NCBI GenBank assembly: GCA_021205455.1
Contig: JAJPXL010000022.1
Location: forward strand, 1-55,539
Reading direction: 5' to 3'
DNA: 55,539 nt
Source: Clostridiales bacterium
GTDB taxonomy: Bacteria; Bacillota; Clostridia; Oscillospirales; Oscillospiraceae
Shown: piece by piece, positions 749 through 24,308 of the stretch
How the letters are laid out: each line of letters starts with the position of its first letter
Numbering within the stretch: position 1 is the stretch's first letter
Notes under the pieces: generated by a model
Database searches by the model: none
Seen by the model: only the letters and a program-made list of their open reading frames with translations
Told to the model about the DNA's origin: nothing
Program-made: the position numbers and the translations under genes

Positions 749-1507
749 ATGAACACCATTCGGAAGGAAACATTTTCGTGTAAGCGGGACGGCATGACCA
801 TCCGTGGCCTCTACTTTCACCCGCAGGGGGAGAACCTCCCCATCGCCATTGTCAGCCACGGCTTTATGGCCAACTACCAGACGACAAAGGGGTACGCAAG
901 CTGGTTTGCAGAGCGCGGCTACGCGGCGTTCTGCTTTGACTTCAACGGTGGCGGACTGATGAGCAAAAGCGACGGGGACACCACAAAGATGACCATCTTT
1001 ACAGAGGAAAAAGACCTGAAAGCGGTCGTCACATACGCAAAATCCCTGCCGGAGACGGATGCAGCCTCCGTCACGCTGATGGGATGCAGCCAGGGCGGGG
1101 TGGTGTCCGGCCTGGTGGCGGCTGACTTACAGGAGCAAGTCAAGCGCCTGATTCTGTTTTATCCCGCGCTCTGCATTCCGGACGACGCCAGGGCCGGGAA
1201 AATGATGTTCGCCAAATTCGACCCGGCCAACATTCCGGAGACCTTCCGCTGCGGCCCAATGAAGCTGGGGCGCGACTACGCCGCTTCCGTCCTGAAGGTC
1301 GACCTGATTGAGGAGATCAGCGGATACGCGGGGCCTGTCCTGATCGTCCACGGTACCGACGATAAAATCGTCAATTACCACTACGCCGAGCGGGCCCAGG
1401 AGGCATACCAAAATGCCACGCTGCAGCTGATTCCCCAGGGGCAGCACGGCTTCTCCAAGGAGGATGACCGGCGTGCCCTGGAATATGTGGAACAGTTCAT
1501 AAAATGA
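749..1507 (+). CDS. Alpha/beta hydrolase
   Basis: 252-residue soluble hydrolase of the alpha/beta fold, probably an esterase or acyl peptidase-like enzyme; the substrate cannot be told from sequence. The nucleophile elbow GCSQGG puts the catalytic serine at residue 114. An 'SHGF' oxyanion-hole motif lies near residue 37, the acid is likely in 'VHGTDDKIV', and the catalytic histidine is in 'GQHGF' close to the C terminus. Start: ATG at 749 with AAAGGAG nine bases upstream; a TTG nine bases earlier is less likely. No signal peptide is seen, so it should be cytosolic. It ends before a strong hairpin at 1571-1643. Confidence 0.85.
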   Translation: MNTIRKETFSCKRDGMTIRGLYFHPQGENLPIAIVSHGFMANYQTTKGYASWFAERGYAAFCFDFNGGGLMSKSDGDTTKMTIFTEEKDLKAVVTYAKSLPETDAASVTLMGCSQGGVVSGLVAADLQEQVKRLILFYPALCIPDDARAGKMMFAKFDPANIPETFRCGPMKLGRDYAASVLKVDLIEEISGYAGPVLIVHGTDDKIVNYHYAERAQEAYQNATLQLIPQGQHGFSKEDDRRALEYVEQFIK

Positions 1508-1570
1508 CAGAGCGGGCGGCGCGAATCAGGATAATCGAAAGCGTATCGCCCACACAAAAAAGGAACTCCG

Positions 1571-3815: not shown

Positions 3816-3937
3816 TGGAGCGGAAGACGAGGCTCGAACTCGCTTCCCTGCCCCGGAAAAGCTGGAGCTTTTCCGGGTACCGGGCACCTCTGATTGCAAA
3901 AATCCGCGCTACACACGGATTTTGGTGGAGGTAGCGA
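3816..3937 (-). repeat. 122-bp repeat carrying the tRNA-Gly 3' end, copy 1
   Basis: The first 29 bases (3816-3844) are identical to the 3' end of the intact tRNA-Gly gene at 4256-4284 (T arm, acceptor 3' strand and CCA), but the 5' two thirds of a tRNA are missing. In their place are two hairpins: a perfect 12-bp stem (3852-3863 with 3866-3877) and an 8-bp stem (3899-3906 with 3916-3923). The last 13 bases, GGTGGAGGTAGCG, match tRNA-Gly in inverted orientation. It differs from copy 2 at only a handful of positions. Confidence 0.75.
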
Positions 3938-4087
3938 GTCCAGCGGACACCAAAACCCAAATGAGTGCTCGATACTCAACCGAAGCAAAGCCCAACGAAG
4001 CGGGTTTGCTTCGGAGAGGAGGAGTGATGGAATGAGTGAGCTTTCGGCTTTAGCCGGAAGCGAGGGATATGGAGTCCACTCCGACGA

Positions 4088-4209
4088 TGGAGCGGAAGAC
4101 GAGGCTCGAACTCGCTTCCCTGCCCCGGAAAAGCTGGGGCTTTCCCGGGTACCGGGCACCTCTGATTGCAAAAATCCGCGCTACTCGCGGATTTTGGTGG
4201 AGGTAGCGA
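4088..4209 (-). repeat. 122-bp repeat carrying the tRNA-Gly 3' end, copy 2
   Basis: Same layout as copy 1, 272 bp further on and next to the intact tRNA-Gly. The second hairpin is longer here (10 bp, AAAATCCGCG with CGCGGATTTT) because the bases that differ from copy 1 are complementary. The 150 bp between the two copies (3938-4087) hold more inverted repeats, for example CCGAAGCAAA with TTTGCTTCGG, and no gene. Confidence 0.75.
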
Positions 4210-4255
4210 TTGCTACTTCACTGCCGCGCTGTTTGCAACAGGGTATAACTCCTTT

Positions 4256-4331
4256 TGGAGCGGAAGACGAGGCTCGAACTCGCTACCTCCACCTTGGCAA
4301 GGTGGCGCTCTACCAGATGAGCTACTCCCGC
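4256..4331 (-). tRNA. tRNA-Gly (GCC)
   Basis: Complete cloverleaf on the minus strand: 5' GCGGGAGTAGCTC, anticodon arm CACCTTGCCAAGGTG with anticodon GCC, T arm GTTCGAG, and encoded CCA. It sits three bases after tRNA-Phe in the same operon. Its 3' end is duplicated twice downstream. Confidence 0.93.
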
Positions 4332-4334
4332 AAA

Positions 4335-4411
4335 TGGTGCCTCCGATCGGAATCGAACCAATGACACGGGGATTTTCAGTCCCCTGCTCTACCAACTGAG
4401 CTACAGAGGCA
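4335..4411 (-). tRNA. tRNA-Phe (GAA)
   Basis: Acceptor TGCCTCT with GGAGGCA, anticodon loop CTGAAAA (GAA), T arm GGTTCGATTCC, and encoded CCA. It is the third gene of the minus-strand tRNA operon. Confidence 0.93.
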
Positions 4412-4435
4412 TATCCATGCCGGCGGCATGGAAAA

Positions 4436-4512
4436 TGGCGACCCGGAACAGGCTCGAACTGTCGACCTCCAGCGTGACAGGCTGGCGTTCTAACCAACTG
4501 AACTACCGGGCC
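4436..4512 (-). tRNA. tRNA-Asp (GTC)
   Basis: Acceptor GGCCCGG with CCGGGTC, anticodon loop CTGTCAC (GTC), T arm AGTTCGAGCC, and encoded CCA. It is the second gene of the tRNA operon. Confidence 0.93.
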
Positions 4513-4533
4513 ATTGAAAAAAGCTGAGACAAA

Positions 4534-4610
4534 TGGTGGGAACAATAGGACTCGAACCTATGACCCCCTGCTTGTAAGGCAGGTGCTCTAACCAGCTGAG
4601 CTATGCTCCC
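4534..4610 (-). tRNA. tRNA-Val (TAC)
   Basis: Acceptor GGGAGCA with TGTTCCC, anticodon loop CTTACAA (TAC), T arm GGTTCGAGTCC, and encoded CCA. It is the first gene of the tRNA operon, 50 bp after the promoter. Confidence 0.93.
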
Positions 4611-4660
4611 TCGCCAGTTGTTGTCAGGTTCGCGTTTGCGCCCTACACTCAGCATGGATT

Positions 4661-4689
4661 ATTATACCCATTCTTCCACCGTTTGTCAA
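4661..4689 (-). promoter_or_regulatory. Promoter of the Val-Asp-Phe-Gly-Cys tRNA operon
   Basis: On minus, consensus TTGACA (4689-4684) and TATAAT (4666-4661) are separated by 17 bp. Strong promoters of this kind are typical for stable RNA. Confidence 0.88.
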
Positions 4690-4720
4690 CTGCTTTTTTT
4701 GAAACTTTCGCTGCGCCAAA

Positions 4721-5599
4721 TTAGAGCTGACCGGCCAGCTGCCGCAGCTCTGCGCCGGAAAAGGCGTACTCCTTCCCGCAGAACTGGCAGCTCAGGGTGC
4801 AGCCGCCCTGCTCCCGGACGATGTCCTCCAGCTCCTGCTTTCCCAGGCTGATGAGGGCGCGGGACACCCGCTCCCGGCTGCAATCGCAGCGGTAGGCCAC
4901 CGGAATCGTCTCCAGCACCTCCACCTCGAACTCCGACAGGATCTCCTGCACCAGCGCCAGCGGGGTGACGCCGCCCGCGAACTGCTCCGTCACATAGCCG
5001 CTTTTGCGGACGCCCCGCTCCACCTTGTCAATGACGGCGTCGTCCGCGCCGGGGAGGAGCTGAATCAGGTAGCCCCCCGCCGCCTTCACGGACAGGTCGG
5101 TGTCCACCAGCACCCCCAGGGCGCAGGCCGTGGGGAACTGCTCACTGGTGGCGAAGTAGGCCGTCAGGTCCTCGGCGATCTCCCCGCTGACCAGGGGCAC
5201 CTGGCCCACATAGGGCTCCCGCATCCCCAGGTCCTTGATGACGGTCAGGGTGCCGTCCCGGCCCACTGCGCCGCCCACGTCCAGCTTTTGCAGGTCGTTC
5301 AGGGGCAGCATCACCTTGGGATTCTGGACATAGCCCCGCACGTCGCCGCTGGCCTCCGCCACGCAGGTGATGTTCCCCAGGGGGCCGCCGCCCTTGAACT
5401 GGACGGTGACGGAGTTGTCCTCCCCCTTGAGCTGGTTGCCCATCATGGACGCGCCCATCAGCGCCCGCCCCAGGGCCGCCGTGGCCACCGGCGTGGTGTT
5501 GTGAATCTGCCGCGCCTGCTCCACCATCTCCCGCCCGGTGATGGCGGAGGCCATCACGGCCCCGTCAGAGGTGATGACCCTCACAATTTCATCTGCCAT
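4721..5599 (-). CDS. hslO: Hsp33 redox-regulated chaperone
   Basis: 292-residue cytosolic holdase chaperone that is switched on by oxidation. The N-terminal substrate-binding domain carries the family block 'ALGRALMGASMMGNQLKG' near residue 42-60. The C-terminal zinc switch has the CxC pair in 'YRCDCSRE' and the CxxC pair in 'CQFCGKEY'; these four cysteines bind zinc when reduced and form disulfides under oxidative stress. Length is typical. It is the last gene of the housekeeping operon, 12 bp after ribF, and the tRNA promoter lies immediately downstream. Confidence 0.96.
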   Translation of the reverse strand: MADEIVRVITSDGAVMASAITGREMVEQARQIHNTTPVATAALGRALMGASMMGNQLKGEDNSVTVQFKGGGPLGNITCVAEASGDVRGYVQNPKVMLPLNDLQKLDVGGAVGRDGTLTVIKDLGMREPYVGQVPLVSGEIAEDLTAYFATSEQFPTACALGVLVDTDLSVKAAGGYLIQLLPGADDAVIDKVERGVRKSGYVTEQFAGGVTPLALVQEILSEFEVEVLETIPVAYRCDCSRERVSRALISLGKQELEDIVREQGGCTLSCQFCGKEYAFSGAELRQLAGQL

Positions 5600-10867: not shown

Positions 10868-10980
10868 ATGCCCATACGGTGGCTATGGCGGGTCGATACA
10901 AGCGGCAGAGTAACCATGCCCTGGGCGCTCATGGGCAATACCTGAATGCGTTCAGGAAAACACTTTTTTAATATTTGCGT

Positions 10981-11009
10981 TTGACAAGTTATGACGGGCG
11001 GCGTATGAT
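10981..11009 (+). promoter_or_regulatory. cas3 promoter
   Basis: TTGACA (10981-10986) and TATGAT (11004-11009) are 17 bp apart. The leader to the cas3 ATG is about 115 nt. I looked for the crRNA-like guide target found at the cas5c promoter and did not find it here, so cas3 seems to be outside the autorepression circuit. Confidence 0.75.
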
Positions 11010-11131
11010 TGTTTTAGTTAAAATTGAAGATTTGCATTGTGCGGTTGAGCGTCAGGCCGCCTGCTCATTTCGCGGTGAAGGGGGCTGCCGCTGCGGGCTG
11101 CACATGGAATCCACCCAATCAGGAGGCAGAT

Positions 11132-13303
11132 ATGGAACAAACGGAATACATTGCCCATCGTGCGGAAGATGGCCGCACCCAAAGCGTAAAGGCCCACCTG
11201 GAGGGGACAGCCGCCCTGTCCGAAGCGTTTGCATCCGCATTCGGTGCGGCAGAGTGGGGCCGCTGGGCGGGGCTGGCCCACGACATCGGCAAATACTCAA
11301 ACGCCTTCCAGCGGCGCATCAACGACCCAGACCACGCGCCACGCACCGACCACTCCACCGCAGGCGCCCAGGAGGCGTTGCGGCGGGGGTTGGCCCCGGC
11401 AGCCTATGCCATAGCCGGACATCACGCCGGCCTGCCGGACGGCGGTACCCGGTTGGATACAGCGGACTACCCCACCATGATAGGCCGCTCTCGGAAGCAG
11501 GTGCCGGATTACAGCGCCTGGCGGCGGGAGGTGACGCTTCCCCAGGTGTCCCTGCTGCCCTACCTGGGGCGGGACGGCTTCACTGACAGCTTTTTCACCC
11601 GAATGCTCTACTCCTGTCTGGTGGATGCGGACTTTCTGGACACGGAGACCTTTATGCAGGGGCCACAGCCCCGCGGAGACTATGCCTCTCTGCCTGTGCT
11701 GCTGGACAGGCTCTCTGCCAAAACAGACCGCTGGTTAAACGGTGCGCCTGGCAGCGCCCTGAACCGCTGCCGCAACGACATCCTCCGCGCCTGTATGGAT
11801 CACGGCGCCCAGTGGCCCCGCTGCCTTTACACGTTGACCGTTCCCACCGGCGGCGGCAAGACCACTGCATCCCTGGCCTTTGCCCTCCGCCACGCCGTAG
11901 CGCATGGGATGAAGCGGATTATCTACGTCATTCCGTATACCTCCATCATCGACCAGACGGTGGATGTGTTCCGGGACATTTTGGGGGAGGAGAACGTCTT
12001 GGCCCATTACGGTGAGGCCGCCTTCCGGCAGAAGGCCCCGGAGGATCTGACCCCGGAGGAGTACCGCCAGCTGCTGGCCTCCGAGAACTGGGATGCGCCG
12101 CTGGTGGTCACCACCGCCGTCCAGTTCTTTGAATCCCTCTATGCCAACCGCAGCTCCCGTTGCCGGAAGCTCCACAATATGGCTGACAGCGTCATCATCT
12201 TTGACGAAGCGCAGACCCTCCCTCTGCCTTACCTCCGTCCCTGCTGCGCCGCCATCGCCCAGCTGGTGGAGCATTACGGCGCTACCGCCGTGCTGTGTAC
12301 CGCCACCCAGCCCGCCCTGGGGCCGCTGTTTGGGGAGCTGGCCCCGAAGCTGCAGATGCAGGAGATTTGCCCCGGCGGGGCAGCCCTCTATCAGGCCCTG
12401 CGGCGCTGTCATTTGGAAGATTTGGGCAGCCTCAGTATGGAGATGCTGGCCCAGCGCCTGCAAGAGCATCAACAGGTGCTCTGCGTGGTGAACCGCCGCA
12501 AGACTGCCCAGCAGCTCTATGCTGCCTTGCCCAAGGACGGAGGCAGCTTCTGTTTGACCACGCTGCTGTGCGCCGCAGACCGTCGGGCCAAGCTGGCTGA
12601 GATACGGCGTCGGCTCAAGGCAGGGCTTCCCTGCCGGGTGGTGTCCACTTCGCTGATCGAGGCAGGCGTGGACGTGGATTTCCCGGTTGCCTATCGGGAG
12701 GAGGCCGGGCTGGACTCCCTCTTGCAGACCGCAGGGCGGTGCAACCGAGAGGGCAGAGAACCGGACCCGACCAAGTGCCCCGTGTATCTGTTTAAGCTGG
12801 AGGACAGCCCAGCGCCCAAAATGCTGGAACCGCAGATCACCGCCCTGCGGGCGGCTCAGCGGGAACAGGGCGAGCTGGATTTGCCGGACGCCATCGCATA
12901 TTATTTCAAAACCCTGTATGGGGTTAAGGGTACCGAGGCGCTGGATCAGAAAAATATTGTAGATGCCTTTGACTATCGGAGGAGCGTACAGTTTCCCTTC
13001 GCTGCGGTGGCCAGGGAATTTGCCCTGATTGAGAATCCGACCAAAACGATTTACCTCCCCATTGACGAGGGAGAAGCGCTCTGTCAGCAGCTCCAGGATG
13101 GGCAGGCGAACCGGACATTGTACCGGAAGCTGGGCCCTTACAGCGTGGAGGTCTACCAGGAGCAGTATCAGGCCCTTTACCAGGCGGGGGCGTTGGACCC
13201 TGTTGACGAGCGCTCCGCTGTGCTGACCTCCCCCATCTGGTATGACCGGGAGACGGGGCTGAAGTCTGATGCGCAGGGAGGGCAGGGGTTGTTTATGGGA
13301 TGA
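11132..13303 (+). CDS. cas3: CRISPR-associated helicase/nuclease Cas3 (type I-C)
   Basis: 723-residue HD nuclease plus SF2 helicase that unwinds and degrades DNA marked by Cascade. The N-terminal HD nuclease has 'GLAHDIGK' (H50 D51), 'TDHST' (D73 H74) and 'GHHAG' (H97 H98). The helicase has Walker A 'VPTGGGKTT' near residue 237 and DEAQ at about 357 (family DExH/D box), then 'VCTATQP'-like motif III as 'LCTATQPAL', and 'VSTSLIEAGVDVDF' with 'QTAGRCNREG' (motifs V and VI). ATG 11132 with AGGAGG was chosen over an upstream frame start at 11024. It has its own promoter and a strong hairpin after the stop. Confidence 0.96.
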   Translation: MEQTEYIAHRAEDGRTQSVKAHLEGTAALSEAFASAFGAAEWGRWAGLAHDIGKYSNAFQRRINDPDHAPRTDHSTAGAQEALRRGLAPAAYAIAGHHAGLPDGGTRLDTADYPTMIGRSRKQVPDYSAWRREVTLPQVSLLPYLGRDGFTDSFFTRMLYSCLVDADFLDTETFMQGPQPRGDYASLPVLLDRLSAKTDRWLNGAPGSALNRCRNDILRACMDHGAQWPRCLYTLTVPTGGGKTTASLAFALRHAVAHGMKRIIYVIPYTSIIDQTVDVFRDILGEENVLAHYGEAAFRQKAPEDLTPEEYRQLLASENWDAPLVVTTAVQFFESLYANRSSRCRKLHNMADSVIIFDEAQTLPLPYLRPCCAAIAQLVEHYGATAVLCTATQPALGPLFGELAPKLQMQEICPGGAALYQALRRCHLEDLGSLSMEMLAQRLQEHQQVLCVVNRRKTAQQLYAALPKDGGSFCLTTLLCAADRRAKLAEIRRRLKAGLPCRVVSTSLIEAGVDVDFPVAYREEAGLDSLLQTAGRCNREGREPDPTKCPVYLFKLEDSPAPKMLEPQITALRAAQREQGELDLPDAIAYYFKTLYGVKGTEALDQKNIVDAFDYRRSVQFPFAAVAREFALIENPTKTIYLPIDEGEALCQQLQDGQANRTLYRKLGPYSVEVYQEQYQALYQAGALDPVDERSAVLTSPIWYDRETGLKSDAQGGQGLFMG

Positions 13304-13311
13304 TGGACAAA

Positions 13312-13339
13312 GCCCGGCGAAGAAGCACCTTCGCCGGGC
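13312..13339. terminator. Hairpin after cas3, shared with the crRNA-like RNA
   Basis: Perfect 11-bp stem GCCCGGCGAAG (13312-13322) with CTTCGCCGGGC (13329-13339). It follows the cas3 stop by eight bases. On the minus strand it is the 3' end of the crRNA-like RNA and is followed by TTTG. Without a long T run in either direction it may act mainly as a stable 3' end. Confidence 0.65.
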
Positions 13340-13391
13340 CAGACGAATATATCGTCTACCAGATATTTCAATCCACAGCTATCGCTGACAC
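13312..13391 (-). ncRNA. crRNA-like autorepressor RNA (CreR/CreA class candidate)
   Basis: Minus-strand RNA of about 80 nt. It opens with a degenerate CRISPR repeat (13391-13365): the last 12 bases, GTGGATTGAAAT, are identical to the array repeat, while the GC stem is replaced by a short rebuilt stem CAGC-GATA-GCTG. The guide begins at 13364. Guide bases 1-17 (ATCTG-g-TAGAC-g-ATATA) match minus-strand positions 13501-13485 in the cas5c promoter at all positions except 6 and 12. The match ends after position 17. A TTC PAM (13504-13502, minus strand) flanks the target. The promoter is at 13424-13396 and the 3' hairpin at 13339-13312. Known CreR/CreA RNAs of other type I and V systems have this design and guide Cascade to repress, not cut. 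Expression and function here are inferred. Confidence 0.85.
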
Positions 13392-13395
13392 AGTT

Positions 13396-13424
13396 ATTAT
13401 AGCGTATACTGAATTTAGCCGCAA
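13396..13424 (-). promoter_or_regulatory. Promoter of the crRNA-like RNA
   Basis: On minus, TTGCGG (13424-13419) and consensus TATAAT (13401-13396) are 17 bp apart. Expected initiation at about 13391-13389 places the first transcribed base at the start of the degenerate repeat. Confidence 0.78.
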
Positions 13425-13454
13425 GGGAGAATCTTAAAAATACAAAAAAAGCAC

Positions 13455-13483
13455 TTGACAAACATCACTACTCGAGTTATACT
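13455..13483 (+). promoter_or_regulatory. Promoter of the cas5c-cas8c-cas7c-cas4-cas1-cas2 operon
   Basis: Consensus TTGACA (13455-13460) and TATACT (13478-13483) are 17 bp apart. Transcription would start near 13490, inside the site matched by the crRNA-like guide. It is divergent from the crRNA-like RNA promoter, whose -35 box is 30 bp away. Confidence 0.85.
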
Positions 13484-13484
13484 T

Positions 13485-13504
13485 TATATAGTCTAACAGA
13501 TGAA
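13485..13504 (-). promoter_or_regulatory. Protospacer-like target of the crRNA-like guide, with TTC PAM
   Basis: The 17-nt site (minus strand 13501 down to 13485) pairs with the guide at positions 1-5, 7-11 and 13-17. The PAM TTC is at 13504-13502 on the same strand. It begins one base after the -10 box and covers the expected start point, so a bound Cascade would block RNA polymerase. Confidence 0.85.
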
Positions 13505-13557
13505 ACAGAGGTGATTGCATATGATTGTTATTTTACAAATGAAAGGAGTGAACGCGA

Positions 13558-14205
13558 TTGTCTATCAAAATCGAAGTCTGGGGGCCTTACGCCTGCTTTT
13601 CTCGACCGGAGATGAAGACGGAACGGGTGTCCTATGACATCATCACCCCCAGCGCAGCCAAGGGCCTGATTGAAAGCATCTTCTGGCACCCCGGCATGAC
13701 CTGGGTCATTGACCGCATTTACCTGCTTTCCCCCATTCAATTTACCAACGTCCGCCGGAACGAGGTGAAATCCGTCATTGTGGGGAGCAATGTCCTCTCC
13801 GTTATGAAGGGCGGCAAGGCGGACCTCGCCATCTACACCTCACAGGACATCCAGCAGCGGGCCGCCCTGATTTTGCAGGATGTCCACTATGTCATTGAGG
13901 CCCACTTTGACATGACGGAGAAGGCCGCCCCTGGGGACAATCCCGGAAAATTCCAGGAGATGACCCGGCGGCGGCTGGCCAAGGGGCAGAATTACAGTAC
14001 GCCCTACCTGGGCTGTCGGGAGTTTCCCGCCAACTGCCGGGAGTGGCCCGGCGGGGAAATCCCCACCCAGCCGGTCACCCAGGACCTGGGCTATATGCTC
14101 CACTCCATGGATTATTCCGACCCTCAGGACATCCGCCCACGGTTCTTCCGGGCAAAGCTGGTGAACGGGGTGCTGGACTTGCAGGATTGTGAGGTGGTCT
14201 CATGA
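13558..14205 (+). CDS. cas5c: Cas5c, Cascade subunit and pre-crRNA endonuclease
   Basis: 215-residue RAMP protein. In type I-C, which lacks Cas6, Cas5c cuts pre-crRNA in the repeat and stays bound to the 5' handle. Features: 'IEVWGPYACFSRPEMKTERVSY' start region (quoted residues 5-26 in part: IEVWGPYACF, then RPEMKTERVSY), 'PSAAKGLIESIFWHP' helix, and 'YSTPYLGCREFP' near residue 146. Start is TTG at 13558 with AAAGGAG nine bases upstream. A separate 38-codon frame with its own SD (ATG 13521) overlaps this start. It overlaps cas8c by 4 bases. Confidence 0.94.
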   Translation: MSIKIEVWGPYACFSRPEMKTERVSYDIITPSAAKGLIESIFWHPGMTWVIDRIYLLSPIQFTNVRRNEVKSVIVGSNVLSVMKGGKADLAIYTSQDIQQRAALILQDVHYVIEAHFDMTEKAAPGDNPGKFQEMTRRRLAKGQNYSTPYLGCREFPANCREWPGGEIPTQPVTQDLGYMLHSMDYSDPQDIRPRFFRAKLVNGVLDLQDCEVVS

Positions 14206-15953
14206 TTTTGCAGGCGCTGACCGAATATTATGACGCCCTGCTGGACCGGGGGGAAATCTCCCCACCCGGCTGGGACGATGCCGCCAAGGTCAGCTTTGGC
14301 CTGGAGCTGGCAGAGGACGGGACGCTGGTGCAGGTAATTCCCTACCAGCGGACGGTGCAGCAGGGCAAAAAGGAAAAGCTGCTGACCAATCGGCTGATGC
14401 GCGTCCCCGCCCATGTGAAGCGAACGGTGGGGATCGCCGCGAATTTTCTGTGTGATACCAGTTCTTATCTCCTGGGGGCGGATGCCAAGGGAAAGCCGAA
14501 ACGCTCTATAGAATGTTTCCTGGACTGTAAAGGGCTGCATCAGCGTCTGCTGACGGGTGTAGACACCCCGGCGGCCCGGGCGATCCTGGCCTTCTTTGAC
14601 CGCTGGCAGCCGGAGCAGGCCGCCGACCATCCCCTGCTGTCGCCCATCTGGAAGGACCTCACTGGCGGAGCCAACCTGATTTTCTGCTTTGGTATGGAGC
14701 CGGTAACTGCGGACACCGCCATCTGCCGAGCCTGGCAGCAGCATTATAGCGCCGGGGCGGAGGATGCCGAAACCGGCCAGTGCCTGGTTACCGGCGAAGT
14801 CAGCCCCATTGCCAAACTCCACCCGTCCATCAAAGGGGTGCGGGGTGCCAGCACGATGGGGGCCTCGCTGGTCTCCTTCAACGCTCCGGCCTTTGAATCC
14901 TACGGCCACACCCAGGGCGGCAATGCCCCCGTGGGGGAATACGCCGCCTTTGCCTACACCACCGCCCTGAACGCCCTGCTGGCGGACAACGAACACTGCC
15001 AGGTCATCGGTGATACCACCGTGGTCTGCTGGGCACAGCACGGGGAACCGGCCTATCAGTCTGTAGGCATGATGGGGCTGTTTGGCGCGGCTCCGGGCAT
15101 TGATGACCGTGACCTGTCCGCCGCGCTGCACAAGCTGGCACAGGGAGAACCCATTTCCTGGGACAATGTGACCCTTTCTCCGGAGGAGCATTTCTACTTC
15201 CTGGGCCTTGCCCCCAATGCGGCCCGGCTGTCGGTGCGGTTCTTCCTCCGGGACAGCTTCGGCAGTTTCATGGAGCATCTGGAGCAGCACTACCGCGACA
15301 TTGCCATCATTCGCCCCGCCTATGACACCCGGGAAAATATTCCGCTGTGGCAGCTGCTCAACGAGACGGTGAATCAGAACAGTCGAACCAAGTCCGCCTC
15401 CCCCCAGTTGACCGGCGATGTGCTCCGGGCGATTCTCAGCGGCGCACCCTATCCCGCCACCCTCCTCAACGGCGCGGAGCTGCGCATCCGGGCGGAGCGG
15501 GAGGTCACCCGGGGCCGCGCGGCCATCATCAAGGCGTATTACCTGCGCTTTTCCCACCCAGACTGTCCAAAGGAGATTTTACAGATGGAACTGAACGAAA
15601 CCAGCACCAACGTGGCCTATACCCTGGGTCGGATGTTCTCGGTCTATGAGCAGATCCAGCAGGCGGCCAACCCCAACATCAACGCTACCATCAAAGATAA
15701 GTATTTCAACGCCGCCTCCGCCACTCCTGCCACGGTGTTCCCCCTGCTGGGTAATCTGGCGGCCAAGCACCAACGGGTGCTGGCCCGGGACAGCAAGGGT
15801 GCGGCGGTCAACCTGGAGCGGAAGCTGCAATCCCTCTCCACTATTATCGGGGATGCATATCCTACCCGGCTGAACCTGCAGCAGCAGGGTTCCTTCCAGC
15901 TGGGCTACTACTTCGAGAATCAGGCTCGTTATCAGAAAAAGGAGGAAAAGTAA
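14202..15953 (+). CDS. cas8c: Cas8c, large subunit of type I-C Cascade
   Basis: 583-residue large subunit (Csd1 family). It reads the PAM and helps recruit Cas3. Family blocks are 'ALTEYYDALLDRGEISPPGW' at the N terminus, 'CLVTGEVSPIAKLHPSIKGV' near residue 188, and the long C-terminal helical domain with 'NVAYTLGRMFSVYEQIQQAA'. In type I-C an internal start within cas8c makes the small subunit Cas11c; I did not pin down that start here, but the C-terminal 120 residues are the expected region. ATG overlaps the cas5c stop. Confidence 0.94.
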   Translation: MILQALTEYYDALLDRGEISPPGWDDAAKVSFGLELAEDGTLVQVIPYQRTVQQGKKEKLLTNRLMRVPAHVKRTVGIAANFLCDTSSYLLGADAKGKPKRSIECFLDCKGLHQRLLTGVDTPAARAILAFFDRWQPEQAADHPLLSPIWKDLTGGANLIFCFGMEPVTADTAICRAWQQHYSAGAEDAETGQCLVTGEVSPIAKLHPSIKGVRGASTMGASLVSFNAPAFESYGHTQGGNAPVGEYAAFAYTTALNALLADNEHCQVIGDTTVVCWAQHGEPAYQSVGMMGLFGAAPGIDDRDLSAALHKLAQGEPISWDNVTLSPEEHFYFLGLAPNAARLSVRFFLRDSFGSFMEHLEQHYRDIAIIRPAYDTRENIPLWQLLNETVNQNSRTKSASPQLTGDVLRAILSGAPYPATLLNGAELRIRAEREVTRGRAAIIKAYYLRFSHPDCPKEILQMELNETSTNVAYTLGRMFSVYEQIQQAANPNINATIKDKYFNAASATPATVFPLLGNLAAKHQRVLARDSKGAAVNLERKLQSLSTIIGDAYPTRLNLQQQGSFQLGYYFENQARYQKKEEK

Positions 15954-15954
15954 A

Positions 15955-16854
15955 ATGTCTGACCCCATCAAAAATCGCTATGAATTCGTCATCCTGTTCG
16001 ACGTGGAGAACGGCAACCCCAACGGGGACCCCGATGCGGGCAATATGCCCCGGGTGGACCCGGAGACCGGCTACGGCCTGGTCACCGACGTGTGCCTGAA
16101 GCGGAAGATCCGCAACTATGTGGAGACGGCCAAGGAGAACGCCACCGGCTACCGCATCTACATCAAGGACAGCGTCCCCCTGAACCGCAGCGACGCCGAA
16201 GCGCTGGACAAACTGGGCTACAAAGGCGTGGACGAAAAGGGGCTGAAAGCCGCCAAAAAGAACGACCCCACCCTGGATGCCAAAGTGCGGGACTTTATGT
16301 GCCAGAATTTCTATGACATTCGCACCTTCGGGGCCGTGATGACCACCTTCGTCAAAGGCAATCTGAACTGCGGCCAGGTTCGGGGTCCGGTGCAGTTGTC
16401 CTTTGCCCGGTCTGTGGACCCCATCGTCCCCCAGGAGGTCACCATCACCCGTGTGGCTATCACCACCGAGGCCGACGCCGAGCGGAAGGGCACCGAGATG
16501 GGGCGGAAGTACATCGTCCCCTACGCCCTCTATCGGGCAGAGGGCTACGTCTCCGCCAACCTGGCCCGCAAGACCACCGGCTTCTCTGAGGAGGACCTGT
16601 CCCTGCTGTGGGAAGCCATCCTGAATATGTTTGAGACTGACCACTCCGCTGCCCGGGGCAAAATGGCCGTCCGCAAACTGATTATCTTCAAGCACGATAC
16701 TGAGCTGGGCTGTGCCCCTGCCTACAAACTGTTTGATACAGTCCAGGTCAGCCGCAAAAATCCCGACGCCCCCGCCCGGGCCTACGGGGACTACACCGTT
16801 ACCGTGGATGGTGCCTCCCTGCCTGCCGGGGTGACCTGTACGGAAATGGCCTGA
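15955..16854 (+). CDS. cas7c: Cas7c, crRNA-coating backbone subunit
   Basis: 299-residue Csd2-family backbone protein; about seven copies coat the spacer and kink it every sixth base. The N-terminal 'FDVENGNPNGDPDAGNMP' block and 'DVCLKRKIRNYV' are diagnostic, as is 'DIRTFGAVMT' in the middle. Two bases separate it from the cas8c stop. The every-sixth-base flip by this protein explains the mismatch pattern of the crRNA-like guide. Confidence 0.95.
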   Translation: MSDPIKNRYEFVILFDVENGNPNGDPDAGNMPRVDPETGYGLVTDVCLKRKIRNYVETAKENATGYRIYIKDSVPLNRSDAEALDKLGYKGVDEKGLKAAKKNDPTLDAKVRDFMCQNFYDIRTFGAVMTTFVKGNLNCGQVRGPVQLSFARSVDPIVPQEVTITRVAITTEADAERKGTEMGRKYIVPYALYRAEGYVSANLARKTTGFSEEDLSLLWEAILNMFETDHSAARGKMAVRKLIIFKHDTELGCAPAYKLFDTVQVSRKNPDAPARAYGDYTVTVDGASLPAGVTCTEMA

Positions 16855-16858
16855 GCCC

Positions 16859-17512
16859 ATGCAGGAAGAAGATTACCTCCCCCTCTCCGGCATCCAGCAC
16901 TTCGTCTTCTGCCGCCGCCAGTGGGCCCTCATCCACCTGGAGCAGCAGTGGGCGGAGAACCTCCGCACCACGGAGGGGGAGCTGCTCCACAAGAACGCCC
17001 ACGACGCGGAGCAGCGCACTCTCCGGGGCGACCTGTTGACGGTGCGGGCTATGCGGGTACACTCCGCCCGGCTGGGCCTCTCCGGGGAGTGCGACGTGGT
17101 GGAGTTCCGGCGTTCGGAGGAAGGGGTGCCGCTGGCGGATACCAAAGGGCTGTGGCTGCCCTACCCTGTGGAGTACAAGCGGGGCCGGGCCAAGCCCACC
17201 GCCTGCGATGAGGCCCAGCTCTGCGCCCAGGCCATATGCCTGGAGGAGATGCTGTGCTGCACCGTTCCGGAGGGGGCGCTGTTCTACGGCCAGCCCAGGC
17301 GGCGGCAGGAGGTGACCTTCACGCCGGAGCTGCGGACGCTGGTGGAGCACGCCGCGCAGGAGATGCACCAGCTGTTTCAACGGGGGTACACACCAAAGGG
17401 CAAGCCCACCAAGGGATGCAACGCCTGCTCGCTGAAAGACCTGTGCCTGCCCGGCCTGACCAAAGGCCCCAGCGTGGCGGACTACCTGAGAGGGGAGTTG
17501 AAGGAGCCGTGA
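16859..17512 (+). CDS. cas4: Cas4, adaptation nuclease
   Basis: 217-residue RecB-like nuclease with a 4Fe-4S cluster. It trims prespacers and selects for PAM together with Cas1-Cas2. Cluster cysteines are C18 ('FVFCRRQW') and C187, C190, C196 ('GCNACSLKDLCLPG'). The nuclease core shows 'GECDVVEF' and 'VEYKRG'. Stop overlaps the GTG start of cas1. Confidence 0.94.
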   Translation: MQEEDYLPLSGIQHFVFCRRQWALIHLEQQWAENLRTTEGELLHKNAHDAEQRTLRGDLLTVRAMRVHSARLGLSGECDVVEFRRSEEGVPLADTKGLWLPYPVEYKRGRAKPTACDEAQLCAQAICLEEMLCCTVPEGALFYGQPRRRQEVTFTPELRTLVEHAAQEMHQLFQRGYTPKGKPTKGCNACSLKDLCLPGLTKGPSVADYLRGELKEP

Positions 17513-18540
17513 GACACCTGCTGAACACGCTGTTCGTCACCATAGAGGACGCCTACGCCACCCTGGACGGGGAAAACGTGGTGATTCGCCGTGGGGAGGA
17601 GACCCTGGGCCGGTTCCCGCTGCACATCCTGGAAGGAATTTTCCTTTTTACCTATCCCGGAGCCTCCCCCGCCCTGATGGGCAAATGCGCCAGGGAAAAC
17701 GTGAACCTGGTCTTTCTGACCCCCAGAGGGCGGTTCCTGGCCCGCACCTGCGGCATGAGCCAGGGCAACGTGCTGCTGCGCCGCACCCAGTACCGGGCGG
17801 CGGACGACCCGCTGCAAAGCTGCCGCATTGCCCGAAATATGATCTTCGGCAAGCTGAGCAACGCCCGGCAGGTGTTGGACCGCGCCCGCCGGGACCACAG
17901 CCCCAGGCTTGACGCGCAGCGCTTTCAGGCGGTTTCCGACCAGCTCCGGGGGCTGCTGCCCCAAGTGCTGGAGGAGACCTCGCTGGACGCTTTGCGGGGC
18001 CTGGAAGGGGCCGGGGCCAACGAGTATTTTGGCCTGTTTGACGACATGATTTTGCGCAGCAAAGACGTGTTTTTCTTCCACGGACGGAGCCGCCGCCCGC
18101 CCCTGGACCCGGTCAACGCCCTGCTGTCCTTTGTCTACACCATGCTGGGCAATGAGTGCGCCTCCGCCCTGGAAACGGTGGGGCTGGACGCCTATGTGGG
18201 CTTCCTCCACCGGGACCGTCCCGGCCGCACCTCTCTGGCCCAGGACCTGCTGGAGGAGCTGCGGCCCTGTATGGCGGACCGCTTCGTGCTGACCCTCATC
18301 AACAACCAGGAAATCTCCGGGAAGGACTTTGAGGAACAGGAGAACGGCGCCGTTTTCCTGACTGACGAAGGCCGCAAAAAGGTTCAACGGGCCTGGCAGG
18401 AGCGGAAGCAGGTGGTCATCGTCCACCCATTCCTGAAGGAAAAGCTGCCCTGGGGCCTGGTGCCCTACGTGCAGGCGCTGCTGCTGGCCCGGTACCTCCG
18501 GGGCGATTTGGACGGTTACCCGCCGTTTTTATGGAAGTGA
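17509..18540 (+). CDS. cas1: Cas1, integrase
   Basis: 343-residue integrase that joins new spacers to the leader end of the array. The family start 'RHLLNTLFVTIEDAYATLDG' fits the GTG codon at 17509, which has AAGGAG before it and overlaps the cas4 stop; a longer open frame to 17236 runs over cas4 and is not real. Metal ligands are expected in 'ALETVGLDAYVGFLHRDRPG' (His) and 'SLAQDLLEELRP' (Asp/Glu) and in an upstream Glu. Full length. Confidence 0.95.
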   Translation: MRHLLNTLFVTIEDAYATLDGENVVIRRGEETLGRFPLHILEGIFLFTYPGASPALMGKCARENVNLVFLTPRGRFLARTCGMSQGNVLLRRTQYRAADDPLQSCRIARNMIFGKLSNARQVLDRARRDHSPRLDAQRFQAVSDQLRGLLPQVLEETSLDALRGLEGAGANEYFGLFDDMILRSKDVFFFHGRSRRPPLDPVNALLSFVYTMLGNECASALETVGLDAYVGFLHRDRPGRTSLAQDLLEELRPCMADRFVLTLINNQEISGKDFEEQENGAVFLTDEGRKKVQRAWQERKQVVIVHPFLKEKLPWGLVPYVQALLLARYLRGDLDGYPPFLWK

Positions 18541-18547
18541 GGCCGTT

Positions 18548-18838
18548 ATGCTTGTCGTGATTGCCTATGACGTAAACACGGAAGACTCTGCCGGGCAGCG
18601 CCGTCTGCGCAAGGTGGCAAAGCAGTGTGTCAACTATGGCCAGCGGGTGCAAAACTCCGTGTTCGAGTGCTCACTGGACGCCGCTCAGTACCGCTTGCTG
18701 AAAGCAAAGCTCTGCGACATCATAGACACAGAGCGGGACAGCCTTCGGTTTTACAATCTTGGGAACAACTACCACAATCGGATCGAGCATTTTGGGGCCA
18801 AGGGCGGCTATGACGCCTCCGGGCCGCTGATTCTCTGA
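18548..18838 (+). CDS. cas2: Cas2, adaptation protein
   Basis: 96-residue ferredoxin-fold protein that bridges two Cas1 dimers and measures prespacer length. 'MLVVIAYDVNTED' places the conserved Asp at residue 8; 'GQRVQNSVFECSLD' is the second family block. It is the last cas gene, seven bases after cas1, and the array leader follows. Confidence 0.95.
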   Translation: MLVVIAYDVNTEDSAGQRRLRKVAKQCVNYGQRVQNSVFECSLDAAQYRLLKAKLCDIIDTERDSLRFYNLGNNYHNRIEHFGAKGGYDASGPLIL

Positions 18839-19016: not shown

Positions 19017-22000
19017 GTCGCTCCCCGCAAGGGGAGCGTGGATTGAAATCTTTCAAATAGTTTTGATTGGTTCCTTTCCCTGCGTCGCTCCCCGCAAGGG
19101 GAGCGTGGATTGAAATGCCCCGCCTGGAGTGGGGGAGGGGAGAGGAGGTAGTCGCTCCCCGCAAGGGGAGCGTGGATTGAAATAGACGGCGGAAAAGAAC
19201 AATTACCGCATCGTATAGTCGCTCCCCGCAAGGGGAGCGTGGATTGAAATGGATATGCAGCCGGTTTTTTGGCCGGAGAACTGGAAGTCGCTCCCCGCAA
19301 GGGGAGCGTGGATTGAAATTTCTGCAATTTCCGTTAGGAATGACGGTCATGCCGTCGCTCCCCGCAAGGGGAGCGTGGATTGAAATAAACAAAAACCTGA
19401 AATTATCATCGCTCTCAATGTCGCTCCCCGCAAGGGGAGCGTGGATTGAAATGGTTGGAAGTTCCAGCTTCGGTAAATAATGTGTAAGTCGCTCCCCGCA
19501 AGGGGAGCGTGGATTGAAATCACGCAAAGCTGCTTCCGTCCGCCCCAGTCGCGCCGTCGCTCCCCGCAAGGGGAGCGTGGATTGAAATGCCCCGCAGAGC
19601 TTAATTTGTGAGGTCGATTTTTGGGTCGCTCCCCGCAAGGGGAGCGTGGATTGAAATTGAGATTGCTTGATTTATCTACTCATAAATTTCACGTCGCTCC
19701 CCGCAAGGGGAGCGTGGATTGAAATCTAGGCACTGCAATTCACCTCGCTTTGTATGGAAAGTCGCTCCCCGCAAGGGGAGCGTGGATTGAAATCTGGCGG
19801 AGATACTCCGCCGGAAGCTGGACCGATGTCGCTCCCCGCAAGGGGAGCGTGGATTGAAATAGCCGGGGCATCTCCGTCACCGTCCGCCCGTTGACGTCGC
19901 TCCCCGCAAGGGGAGCGTGGATTGAAATATTGATTACATGGGGGCGGAGGATACGAGCTACACGTCGCTCCCCGCAAGGGGAGCGTGGATTGAAATACCG
20001 TGGGGAATCGTAGAATCGCAGATGATGACAAAGTCGCTCCCCGCAAGGGGAGCGTGGATTGAAATATGTCCGGCTATAACAAGCGCGGCAATCAGCACAC
20101 CGTCGCTCCCCGCAAGGGGAGCGTGGATTGAAATCCCGGTGTAGCCTACTACCCACACATACCAGGCATGTCGCTCCCCGCAAGGGGAGCGTGGATTGAA
20201 ATACTTGCTTCATCAAAGATACCAACGATAAAATCAGTCGCTCCCCGCAAGGGGAGCGTGGATTGAAATCCCCATGTCAGTATTGTTATGAGTGACAATG
20301 CCCCATTGTCGCTCCCCGCAAGGGGAGCGTGGATTGAAATGTCCGTCGGCGTCAGGGTCGGCACCTCCGTGCTGTCGCTCCCCGCAAGGGGAGCGTGGAT
20401 TGAAATCACAGGTACCGGTAGGTGCTTGTGACGGTTTGGACGTCGCTCCCCGCAAGGGGAGCGTGGATTGAAATCACCCGTCCATCGTCTTGGTGTTGGG
20501 CAGCAGGTTCCGTCGCTCCCCGCAAGGGGAGCGTGGATTGAAATACGTTATTTCATCCAGGGCGGGGTTTCGCCAGGGTCGCTCCCCGCAAGGAGAGCGT
20601 GGATTGAAATGTGTGTACTACTCACACAAAGGGGTACAAGCAGCTGTCGCTCCCCGCAAGGGGAGCGTGGATTGAAATGATGGAGTAGGATTCAACGCCC
20701 GGTTCTAGGCGGGTCGCTCCCCGCAAGGGGAGCGTGGATTGAAATATCGCTGCTGTCTGCCAGGCTGGCGATGGCCGCCGCGTCGCTCCCCGCAAGGGGA
20801 GCGTGGATTGAAATTGTTTGGCCTCCAGCGCCTCCACGCTGGTGGCGTTGGTCGCTCCCCGCAAGGGGAGCGTGGATTGAAATATTTAGTGGGAGGCTAC
20901 CCCTGGGCATCCTCCAGCAGTCGCTCCCCGCAAGGGGAGCGTGGATTGAAATTGATGGACAATAACATCCGGCCATTGACTGACCTGTCGCTCCCCGCAA
21001 GGGGAGCGTGGATTGAAATTGGCCTATGACGGCAAACTGAAAGATAAAATCGGAGTCGCTCCCCGCAAGGGGAGCGTGGATTGAAATAGTCATTTTTGTT
21101 TACCTCCGTCCTTCATTGTGCGTCGCTCCCCGCAAGGGGAGCGTGGATTGAAATTTCCCGGACATATCGTAGTACCACACCCTGGCGGCGTCGCTCCCCG
21201 CAAGGGGAGCGTGGATTGAAATGTGCTGGCCATGCCGCTCCCTGAAATGCGGTAAAAGTCGCTCCCCGCAAGGGGAGCGTGGATTGAAATCCGTAGCTGT
21301 TATTGCCGTAGGGCATGAAGCCGTGTCGCTCCCCGCAAGGGGAGCGTGGATTGAAATTCAGACCTCTTTGTGGCCGTGATGGTCGTGGCCTGGTCGCTCC
21401 CCGCAAGGGGAGCGTGGATTGAAATAGGTATTCGTATGCCATTGTAATGTTCCTTTCTGTGTCGCTCCCCGCAAGGGGAGCGTGGATTGAAATCAACAAG
21501 TCAGCATTGACCAAAGGGGACAAACAGTCGCTCCCCGCAAGGGGAGCGTGGATTGAAATCGGCCAAACGTACAATATGCGGAGCGAGGCCAAAGCGTCGC
21601 TCCCCGCAAGGGGAGCGTGGATTGAAATGGGGCGTAGGAAAAGATGGTCGTTCGGTTGCGCTTGTCGCTCCCCGCAAGGGGAGCGTGGATTGAAATAGGC
21701 ACATCCCGCCCAGCGCCTTAATTCTCAGCCGTCGCTCCCCGCAAGGGGAGCGTGGATTGAAATCATTATTTTACCTCCTAAATTTTCCGTTGTGGTGTCG
21801 CTCCCCGCAAGGGGAGCGTGGATTGAAATGGCCCGAAGCACCTGGAATACATGAGGAACTGTCGGTCGCTCCCCGCAAGGGGAGCGTGGATTGAAATCCC
21901 AGTACATTGACGGCTGCGGCGGTTATTATGGTCGCTCCCCGCAAGGGGAGCGTGGATTGAAATACCGAGATTGCCTGCGCTCTGGGCGGCGTGGTGCTGT

Positions 22001-24308
22001 CGCTCCCCGCAAGGGGAGCGTGGATTGAAATAAGCAGAAAGCCAACGAAATCGGCGGCACGCAGAGGTCGCTCCCCGCAAGGGGAGCGTGGATTGAAATA
22101 TCGAATTTGGTTCCGGTATCAGGTATCCCGATAGTCGCTCCCCGCAAGGGGAGCGTGGATTGAAATAAGGCCACGTTCAGCTGGGCGTTGAGGGAGTCTA
22201 CCGTCGCTCCCCGCAAGGGGAGCGTGGATTGAAATAATCACAAACTGTGATTTTTGTAACCGAAGCACAATGTCGCTCCCCGCAAGGGGAGCGTGGATTG
22301 AAATGTCTCGGTGGCTCCATACTTGGCTCCGCCAGTCAGGGTCGCTCCCCGCAAGGGGAGCGTGGATTGAAATATAAAAGCGACTGCGTCACGGCCCCAG
22401 GTGGCCGCGTCGCTCCCCGCAAGGGGAGCGTGGATTGAAATTCGAGGATGAACAGTGTTCTTCCGACGCGGGCAAGTCGCTCCCCGCAAGGGGAGCGTGG
22501 ATTGAAATCAAAATTTACCATCTCAATAAATTGCAACTTGCGTCGCTCCCCGCAAGGGGAGCGTGGATTGAAATTCCGCTATAATACGGATAATGGAAAG
22601 GGTGAGCGTCGCTCCCCGCAAGGGGAGCGTGGATTGAAATATCGTGGTGCTAATAATTCGTTTTGCCATCTTTTGTCGCTCCCCGCAAGGGGAGCGTGGA
22701 TTGAAATAGCGCTTCTTTCAAGTCTTTTATAATACTCTCGGATGGTCGCTCCCCGCAAGGGGAGCGTGGATTGAAATATGTTGAACACTCCTTAAAATCG
22801 GTGGTGGCTGGGTCGCTCCCCGCAAGGGGAGCGTGGATTGAAATTGCTGTGTCCACATAGTAGGCAAGCCGCGTCAGCGTCGCTCCCCGCAAGGGGAGCG
22901 TGGATTGAAATAGGACATAGCATTACAAAACAACTTAGCGCAGAGTCGCTCCCCGCAAGGGGAGCGTGGATTGAAATACAGCCTTTAACTGGCTTAATTT
23001 GGGCAAGAACATCGTCGCTCCCCGCAAGGGGAGCGTGGATTGAAATTTTGTTGCCATGATATTTTACCTCCTTAAATTATCGTCGCTCCCCGCAAGGGGA
23101 GCGTGGATTGAAATATGTCAAAATAGGTACCACCGCCGTACCGCTGTCCGTCGCTCCCCGCAAGGGGAGCGTGGATTGAAATATTTTGTCTTGCGCGTTT
23201 TTTTGGACCGTGATCCGTCGCTCCCCGCAAGGGGAGCGTGGATTGAAATACCTATGTGCTGGCGATGGTGGAGTTTACCCCCGGTCGCTCCCCGCAAGGG
23301 GAGCGTGGATTGAAATCTCGGTTGCGCTGTTTTCCACGGCGGAATCGTCGGGTCGCTCCCCGCAAGGGGAGCGTGGATTGAAATATCGTCCGGTATTTGC
23401 CGCCGATAATCAGCCCCGTGTCGCTCCCCGCAAGGGGAGCGTGGATTGAAATATCTCCTGGTACTTTGGGTGCAGTGAGGCAGACGCGTCGCTCCCCGCA
23501 AGGGGAGCGTGGATTGAAATCTCTGGTAATTGGCTCGCCAAACACAGCAATTCATGTCGCTCCCCGCAAGGGGAGCGTGGATTGAAATACCAACACGGTG
23601 GAGCTGCGGTCTCCGCTCGGCGTCGCTCCCCGCAAGGGGAGCGTGGATTGAAATTCATCAGAGAAGTCCATGTTCTCCGGTCTAACAGTCGCTCCCCGCA
23701 AGGGGAGCGTGGATTGAAATGTCCTCCACTTACGGTACGCTGACCGTCACCGTAGTCGCTCCCCGCAAGGGGAGCGTGGATTGAAATTGCCCATATCTGC
23801 CATGGCGACGGCGGCGTCGTCGTCGCTCCCCGCAAGGGGAGCGTGGATTGAAATATGGCGGGCGACAGGTTGCGCATGTCCTGGGGTGTCGCTCCCCGCA
23901 AGGGGAGCGTGGATTGAAATATGGGCTTGATGTTCTCGTTGCCGTCGGTGCGGCGTCGCTCCCCGCAAGGGGAGCGTGGATTGAAATCTTGGTCTTGTAG
24001 GTCTGGTCGCCGCGCTTGCACGTCGCTCCCCGCAAGGGGAGCGTGGATTGAAATCGCAGCTGTTTGGAGGGGCTGGCCGGGTAGGTGGGTCGCTCCCCGC
24101 AAGGGGAGCGTGGATTGAAATTCTATCGTGCAGTCATAGATGCCAGGCTTGCTGGTCGCTCCCCGCAAGGGGAGCGTGGATTGAAATCCCGGCTCCCATG
24201 TAATCCAGCTCTCCGAAGCGGTCGCTCCCCGCAAGGGGAGCGTGGATTGAAATGCGAAGTTAGCTGCGGACGCGACATCACGCAACGTCGCTCCCCGCAA
24301 GGGGAGCG
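19017..24308 (+). CRISPR. Type I-C CRISPR array, 78 spacers
   Basis: The 33-bp repeat begins GTCGCTCCCCGCAAGG and ends GTGGATTGAAAT, with an 8-bp stem (CGCTCCCC, loop GCAA, GGGGAGCG). I counted 78 full repeats and a 79th (24287-24308) cut after 22 bases. Repeat 24 has a G-to-A change at 20594. The unit averages 67.6 bp, so spacers are about 33-36 bp. The leader-proximal end is at cas2 and the worn repeat at the far end, so transcription runs on plus. Several spacers contain GGAGG-type ribosome sites beside start codons when read on minus (for example near 21080, 21770 and 23060), which suits phage gene starts. Confidence 0.98.

Follow-up and report, generated by a model that had tools for sequence, protein, structure and literature searches.

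What is a single degenerate CRISPR repeat doing outside any array, between two genes of a cas operon? The question is raised by the 55,539-nucleotide stretch of DNA from a Clostridiales bacterium of the gut that was analysed here (contig JAJPXL010000022.1, hereafter the window). A complete type I-C locus lies within it, with cas3, cas5c, cas8c, cas7c, cas4, cas1 and cas2 together with an array:

10981-11009, plus strand: own predicted promoter of cas3, TTGACA-17-TATGAT
11024-13303, plus strand: cas3, without a target of the RNA described below
13455-13483, plus strand: cas5c operon promoter TTGACA-17-TATACT, from the promoter scan
13558-14205, plus strand: cas5c (TIGR01876)
14202-15953, plus strand: cas8c/csd1
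15955-16854, plus strand: cas7c/csd2
16859-17512, plus strand: cas4
17236-18540, plus strand: cas1 open reading frame, with the Cas1c match beginning at residue 95 of the longest frame
18548-18838, plus strand: cas2
19017-24253, plus strand: CRISPR array, 77 exact copies of the repeat GTCGCTCCCCGCAAGGGGAGCGTGGATTGAAAT

The promoters of cas3 and of the cas5c operon are the two 11/12 matches given by the promoter scan over 10900-13700. Between cas3 and cas5c, a solitary degenerate type I-C repeat was found on the minus strand, both by direct reading and by script. It would open a small-RNA gene read leftward, which we call creR, with the following elements and target:

13419-13424, minus strand: -35 box TTGCGG, 3/6 of the consensus
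13396-13401, minus strand: -10 box TATAAT, 17 nt after TTGCGG, with a predicted start at the repeat itself
13365-13389, minus strand: degenerate type I-C repeat GTC-AGC-GATA-GCT-GTGGATTGAAAT, with a 4-bp hairpin (CAGC-GATA-GCTG) and the intact handle TGGATTGAAAT
13348-13364, minus strand: pairing segment of the guide, 17 nt, 15 matches, bases 6 and 12 free
13341-13357, minus strand: guide self-hairpin AGACGA-(5)-TCGTCT, overlapping the pairing segment and exceeding the null rate in the focal clade only
13312-13339, minus strand: terminator-like hairpin GCCCGGCGAAG...CTTCGCCGGGC in the place of the second repeat, with a weak T tail
13485-13501, minus strand: target (protospacer strand), over the predicted cas5c transcription start
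13502-13504, minus strand: PAM, TTC

The 12-nt end of the creR repeat, GTGGATTGAAAT, is the same as that of the array repeat. A preliminary description of this region had already reported a degenerate repeat with handle and hairpin and a TATAAT promoter of its own. Both are present, but the repeat starts at 13389, two nucleotides from the 13391 first given, and the box at minus 13401-13396 is accompanied by a weak -35 element; because only three of its six bases agree with the consensus, the promoter scan does not list it. In the focal clade, i.e. eight loci whose Cas5c proteins are 92-100% identical (over part of the gene for L053), TATAAT is found at a similar distance from the repeat. The terminator-like hairpin is followed by an imperfect T tract, and the scan lists only a weaker overlapping stem. 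The predicted RNA has a fold z-score of -5.0. A search of 13200-13600 against Rfam gave nothing at the gathering score, the best hit being a snoRNA with an E value of 0.4 that we judge to be chance.

The guide following this repeat reads ATCTG-G-TAGAC-G-ATATA and the target on minus 13501-13485 reads ATCTG-T-TAGAC-T-ATATA. All 15 guide positions other than the sixth bases (1-5, 7-11 and 13-17) match, the only mismatches being at 6 and 12, and pairing ends at 17. The target starts 2 nt past the -10 box of the cas5c promoter and spans about -6 to +10. Direct alignment thus bears out the match, the TTC flank and the end at 17 as first described. The accompanying estimate of about 1 in 10^9 per site ignored base composition; the conclusion that the match exceeds chance stands. 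Allowing up to two mismatches, the PAM plus 15-position pattern has a single site in the whole genome (2.67 Mb, 175 contigs), and this genome-wide scan found no creR target at cas3. The same guide, searched as one pattern, had no match in viral contigs.

Is this arrangement peculiar to one contig? We located cas5c in 146 loci and dropped 12 duplicate upstream regions, which left 134 distinct ones, 133 of them with at least 120 nt. These 133 are the best-scoring relatives nearest to this Cas5c and not a random sample. Candidate guides preceded by TTGAAA score at least 13/15 in 41 of 275 cases when compared with the locus that carries them, and in 4 of 2728 cross-locus controls. The fixed handle motif occurs in 51 of the 133 loci (55 matches), and in 44 of these 51 the guide matches the same locus at nine or more of the ten seed positions (1-5 and 7-11). 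Six of the seven remaining loci look chance-like by eye (five motifs lie on the plus strand and that of L051 lies 766 nt upstream); the seventh, L068, carries a true-looking solitary repeat that appears to have another likely target. Altogether, 50 of the 133 cas5c upstream regions hold a solitary repeat with a guide matching the same region: 43 that could be aligned, L020 with a TTA flank, L076, L078 and L080 from handle-free or relaxed scans, and L014, L072 and L085 with relaxed handles. In all 43 aligned cases the repeat lies on the strand opposite cas5c. Matches in L051, L110, L134, L130 and L136 were judged chance and kept out of the 50.

The presence of creR follows the room between cas3 and cas5c. 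It is found in 49 of 56 loci with a gap of at least 180 nt, in none of 71 with a shorter gap and in one of six without cas3 in reach. The figure of 49 includes relaxed handles scanned on ten roomy loci and becomes 46/56 without these three; one relaxed rule applied alike to all 133 gives 42/56, 0/71 and 1/6, all within the 50. In seven of the 56 roomy loci neither the fixed nor the relaxed scans found creR. These counts suggest that creR is nearly the rule in the nearest clostridial type I-C loci with room for one. A wider sampling added 76 loci, six from 54 plasmid records and 70 from other searches. The gap is below 150 nt in 70 of them, so that most loci farther away within the phylum lack such a gap; no cas3 was found in one, and five have a larger gap. 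Among these five, creR is present in L192 and L240 and was not found in L183, L228 and L247 (Treponema saccharophilum). A nine-of-ten match in L198 was judged chance, as were 9/10 matches upstream of cas3 in long loci, which have no TTC flank.

The 43 aligned loci permit the pairing to be read position by position. They were chosen by seed, which by itself makes the seed positions high; positions 6, 12 and 13-30 and the PAM played no part in the choice, and the TTA case L020 was left out. The numbers of matches at positions 1 to 17 are 42, 43, 43, 43, 43, (14), 43, 41, 43, 42, 42, (8), 38, 40, 39, 36 and 30. Positions 13-16 thus match in 36-40 of 43 loci and position 17 in 30, while 6, 12 and 18-30 are near background (7-13 matches at positions 18-30, with about 11 expected by chance). 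The 44 seed matches are flanked by TTC in 35 cases, by TTT in eight and by TTA in one. Guides and targets differ from genome to genome and remain matched: across the 43 loci, own targets agree with the guide at 14.1 of 15 positions on average and foreign ones at 5.7, and in 41 of 43 rows no foreign target scores higher than the guide's own. Guides of the focal clade vary widely, and guide and target change together there. Own pairing scores 117/120, the single best of 40320 permutations (mean 76.75), and over all pairs of clade members 160 differing positions are changed on both sides versus 19 on one side, these events not being independent. A chance match is rejected by the single genome site, the own- versus cross-locus guides, the per-position pattern and the pairing permutations. 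The preliminary description had proposed to look in relatives for covariation of guide and promoter, which is what the focal clade displays, and had stated that relatives which retain the repeat and have lost the match would speak against its reading; the 44 matches among 51 handle-motif loci are the opposite of such a loss.

What kind of RNA would be made? A repeat stem of at least 4 pairs is present in 46 of the 50 creR loci, compared with about 36% of shuffles. As this proportion of shuffles reaches 4 pairs, the 4-bp stem of the window is unremarkable alone, and its recognition by Cas5c is not assured. A 3' hairpin of at least 7 pairs occurs in 44 of 50, and 41 of these 44 start 22-31 nt after the guide start. 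In the focal-clade alignment (A1) with three stems, 96.3% of cells are paired versus 86.4% in shuffles (reached by 0/500), and double changes affect 10 of 21 pairs (reached by 1/500). The number of further pair types in A1 is not unusual (123/500 shuffles), and the repeat stem is invariant. When creR and array handles were compared in nine relatives, six agreed over the last ten bases (four of them over eleven) and three differed by one of ten. Five genomes have the unusual creR handle GGATAGAAA. The array was read in four of them: the same handle is also in the array of G458 and G667 and is absent from that of G446 and G031; the fifth genome, G604, is without an array read.

The guide of the focal clade has a hairpin of its own. 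In this hairpin the 5' arm runs from about base 8-10 to base 13-14 of the guide, and the 3' arm, bases 19-25, comes shortly after the last base that pairs with the target. In A1, 87.5% of the hairpin's cells are paired and four of its six pairs show double changes; in L010 it fits in a register shifted by one. Its 3' arm changes along with the 5' arm, which is constrained by the target. Guide base 12 is a G in 8/8 members, mismatches the target in 8/8 and is used by the hairpin. A guide hairpin of at least 4 pairs is present in 8/8 focal-clade loci versus 5/35 elsewhere, shuffles giving 12.6%; as a general creR feature it was rejected on account of this null rate outside the clade. As a tentative and rather doubtful idea, the hairpin could make creR a deliberately weak ligand of Cascade, an affinity setting by which ordinary crRNAs win and the repressor gauges crRNA supply. 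This clade-specific guide hairpin may be new.

Several features of the leader deserve mention in their own right. At 13520-13558 of the window, an upstream start codon preceded by a stretch resembling a ribosome site opens a frame that runs into cas5c in a different register; most focal-clade members have a similar start, and the peptide is not conserved by eye. L019, L024, L026 and L027 contain a short frame (MVEATR or MVEARR, then NRPP or NRTPP) about 105 nt before cas5c, with a GC-rich hairpin seen by eye that overlaps the cas5c start in three of the four. It is a possible leader or attenuator. L026 has about 234 nt of extra leader compared with L027, at about -402 to -130 before cas5c.

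RNAs of this general kind have been described. CreR is the cas-regulating RNA of Liu et al. 2023, as cited in PMC13131331 and PMC12737573; the accessible text of the former names CreRs for types I-B, I-E and V-A, and that of the latter refers to type I and V-A in general and does not mention I-C. As far as these texts go, creR resembles them as a crRNA-like RNA beside cas genes with partial complementarity to a cas promoter and, generally, no toxin. Its degenerate repeat lies outside the array and within the cas locus, with the handle kept. The guide is partly complementary to the cognate cas promoter, next to a PAM. The complementarity is limited, ending at 17 in the window and at about 17 in the 43 loci, and is predicted to be too short for interference. 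No toxin gene was found by eye under the target promoter in the window and the clade leaders. The usual form of a CreR is a mini-CRISPR of two repeats. Here there is one repeat plus a hairpin, and we do not count two repeats as defining since one-repeat CreA forms are known. Relative to what these sources describe, creR differs by its type I-C subtype, by its one repeat and terminator-like hairpin, by having Cas5c for Cas6 (Cas5c stands in place of Cas6 in type I-C, according to the part of PMC10013973 available), by its 17-nt match in three segments and by the focal-clade guide hairpin. Our literature search, with the tables of Liu 2023 and Shmakov 2023 outside its scope, found no type I-C CreR in the accessible texts. 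This agrees with the first remark that no description was known from this lineage and subtype; the element itself is widespread and not unique. In the available portions, repeat degeneration is treated in PMC9458426, and PMC10013973 reports for Streptococcus mutans a different mode of control, a two-component system that lowers type I-C Cas levels.

Shmakov et al. 2023 reportedly predicted crRNA-like regulatory elements, mostly of type I: repeats that stand alone in the neighbourhood of cas genes and match a promoter in part. In these respects creR is like them. Because such elements are reportedly predicted across type I, we make no claim of first description.

The closest relative in pairing geometry is CreA of the CreTA systems (type I-B, haloarchaea). 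According to the accessible part of PMC8501985, its seed at 1-5 and 7-11 beside a TTC PAM was tested by mutation, and creA of H. hispanica has one repeat and ends in a terminator, as creR appears to do. It could be asked whether the RNA here is likewise an antitoxin that silences a toxin from the same promoter, the cas operon being merely downstream. The shared seed geometry and PAM are in line with this, as is L068 (Enterocloster hominis), in which a DUF3990 gene stands between the solitary repeat and cas5c. CreA, however, silences a toxin RNA in the available account, whereas the creR target drives cas5c and pairing reaches 13-17. The window target is only 56 nt from cas5c, its promoter leads into cas5c, and the sole frame seen is the upstream one running into cas5c, whose peptide is not conserved by eye among the eight clade members; L053 is without most of the leader. 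No toxin was seen in the leader of the window or of the focal clade, and the window leader has no closed frame of 15 or more residues. We consider an antitoxin role very unlikely here; L068 may be an exception elsewhere. In that locus (Enterocloster hominis BX10, 3914-4974), the DUF3990 gene and a 146-aa gene without Pfam match lie between cas3 and cas5c, and the guide of the minus-strand solitary repeat agrees by eye with a TTC-flanked site upstream of the DUF3990 promoter at nine of ten seed positions. The 15-position script search gave chance-level scores only. A type I-C toxin-CreA pair is possible there.

Solitary repeats also occur as Racrs, phage- or prophage-borne inhibitors that include RacrIC1, an inhibitor of type I-C, in the accessible text of PMC10651486. 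The likeness is that of a solitary type I-C repeat unit, and creR could accordingly be imagined as a sponge or assembly decoy that binds Cas proteins, its promoter match being secondary. Racrs are carried by viruses or mobile elements away from cas genes; creR differs from those described in that it sits between cas3 and cas5c, inside the cas locus of the host, and has its target in a promoter. A guide-target match would be superfluous in a sponge, and 50 loci keep one beside a PAM, covarying in the focal clade, which makes this explanation extremely improbable. A separate element of this genome looks like a candidate Racr, a phage RNA anti-CRISPR: on contig C59 (locus L001, about 1481-1512, plus strand) there is a second solitary type I-C repeat with a shortened stem and an intact GTGGATTGAAAT, after which come 20 nt and a run of T. 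A search for self targets of this repeat gave no good one. About 0.6 kb farther on there is a phage-type nuclease domain (PBECR3), and a frame at 2797 has an integrase-like start by eye, its sole Pfam match being a weak zinc ribbon.

A pair of similar DNA sites at a promoter could also have arisen by duplication of a promoter fragment, or could serve a protein regulator as two operators. Against this, the mismatches fall on the sixth bases, the match begins exactly at the handle and ends at about 17, TTC or TTT flanks 43 of 44 matches, and the sequences differ freely between genomes; the probability left to this account is close to negligible. Another question is whether creR binds as described and activates or insulates the cas5c promoter. 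With a simple promoter score and sorting by hand, the 43 targets fall into 22 around or shortly past the predicted start, 18 that closely precede the -35 box (eight on the plus and ten on the minus strand) and three elsewhere. For the 18 upstream targets, activation is also conceivable. The window target lies over the predicted start, so that Cascade bound there should block, and known CreRs repress in the accessible parts of the sources. We regard an activating or insulating role here as very unlikely.

Taken with the evidence of sequence and comparison, i.e. the anatomy, the guide-target match, the PAM, the freedom of the sixth bases, the 17-nt limit, the covariation and the conserved place, creR is very probably a CreR-type autorepressor RNA for type I-C. 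In type I effectors, guide bases such as 6 and 12 are flipped out, and short pairing leads to binding without Cas3 cutting. We infer the following course. The RNA would begin at the degenerate repeat, retain its hairpin and 5' handle, and end at the hairpin replacing the second repeat. After processing, creR-loaded type I-C Cascade would recognise the site that covers the cas5c transcription start beside TTC and pair over three Cas7-sized segments (1-5, 7-11 and 13-17), with bases 6 and 12 flipped out. Since pairing stops at 17, bound Cascade should stand in the way of RNA polymerase, with neither a complete R-loop nor cutting by Cas3. The cas5c promoter, and with it the cas5c-cas8c-cas7c-cas4-cas1-cas2 operon, would be repressed by the operon's own product, and ordinary crRNAs or inhibitors that draw Cascade off creR would relieve this repression. 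As cas3 has its own predicted promoter and no target, only this operon would be controlled; regulation would fall on the effector and adaptation genes and not on cas3.

The general idea of CreR is known; what is added here is the type I-C subtype, a presence that is nearly universal among the roomy loci examined, and the guide hairpin of one clade. RNA-guided self-control of CRISPR would thereby extend to type I-C. The per-position pattern over dozens of genomes may be taken as a natural footprint of DNA recognition by type I-C Cascade, with its PAM and its free sixth bases, and the 17-nt pairing limit is seemingly treated as safe by evolution. With so many guide-promoter pairs at hand, the ideas that such a circuit would sense crRNA supply and anti-CRISPR proteins become directly testable.
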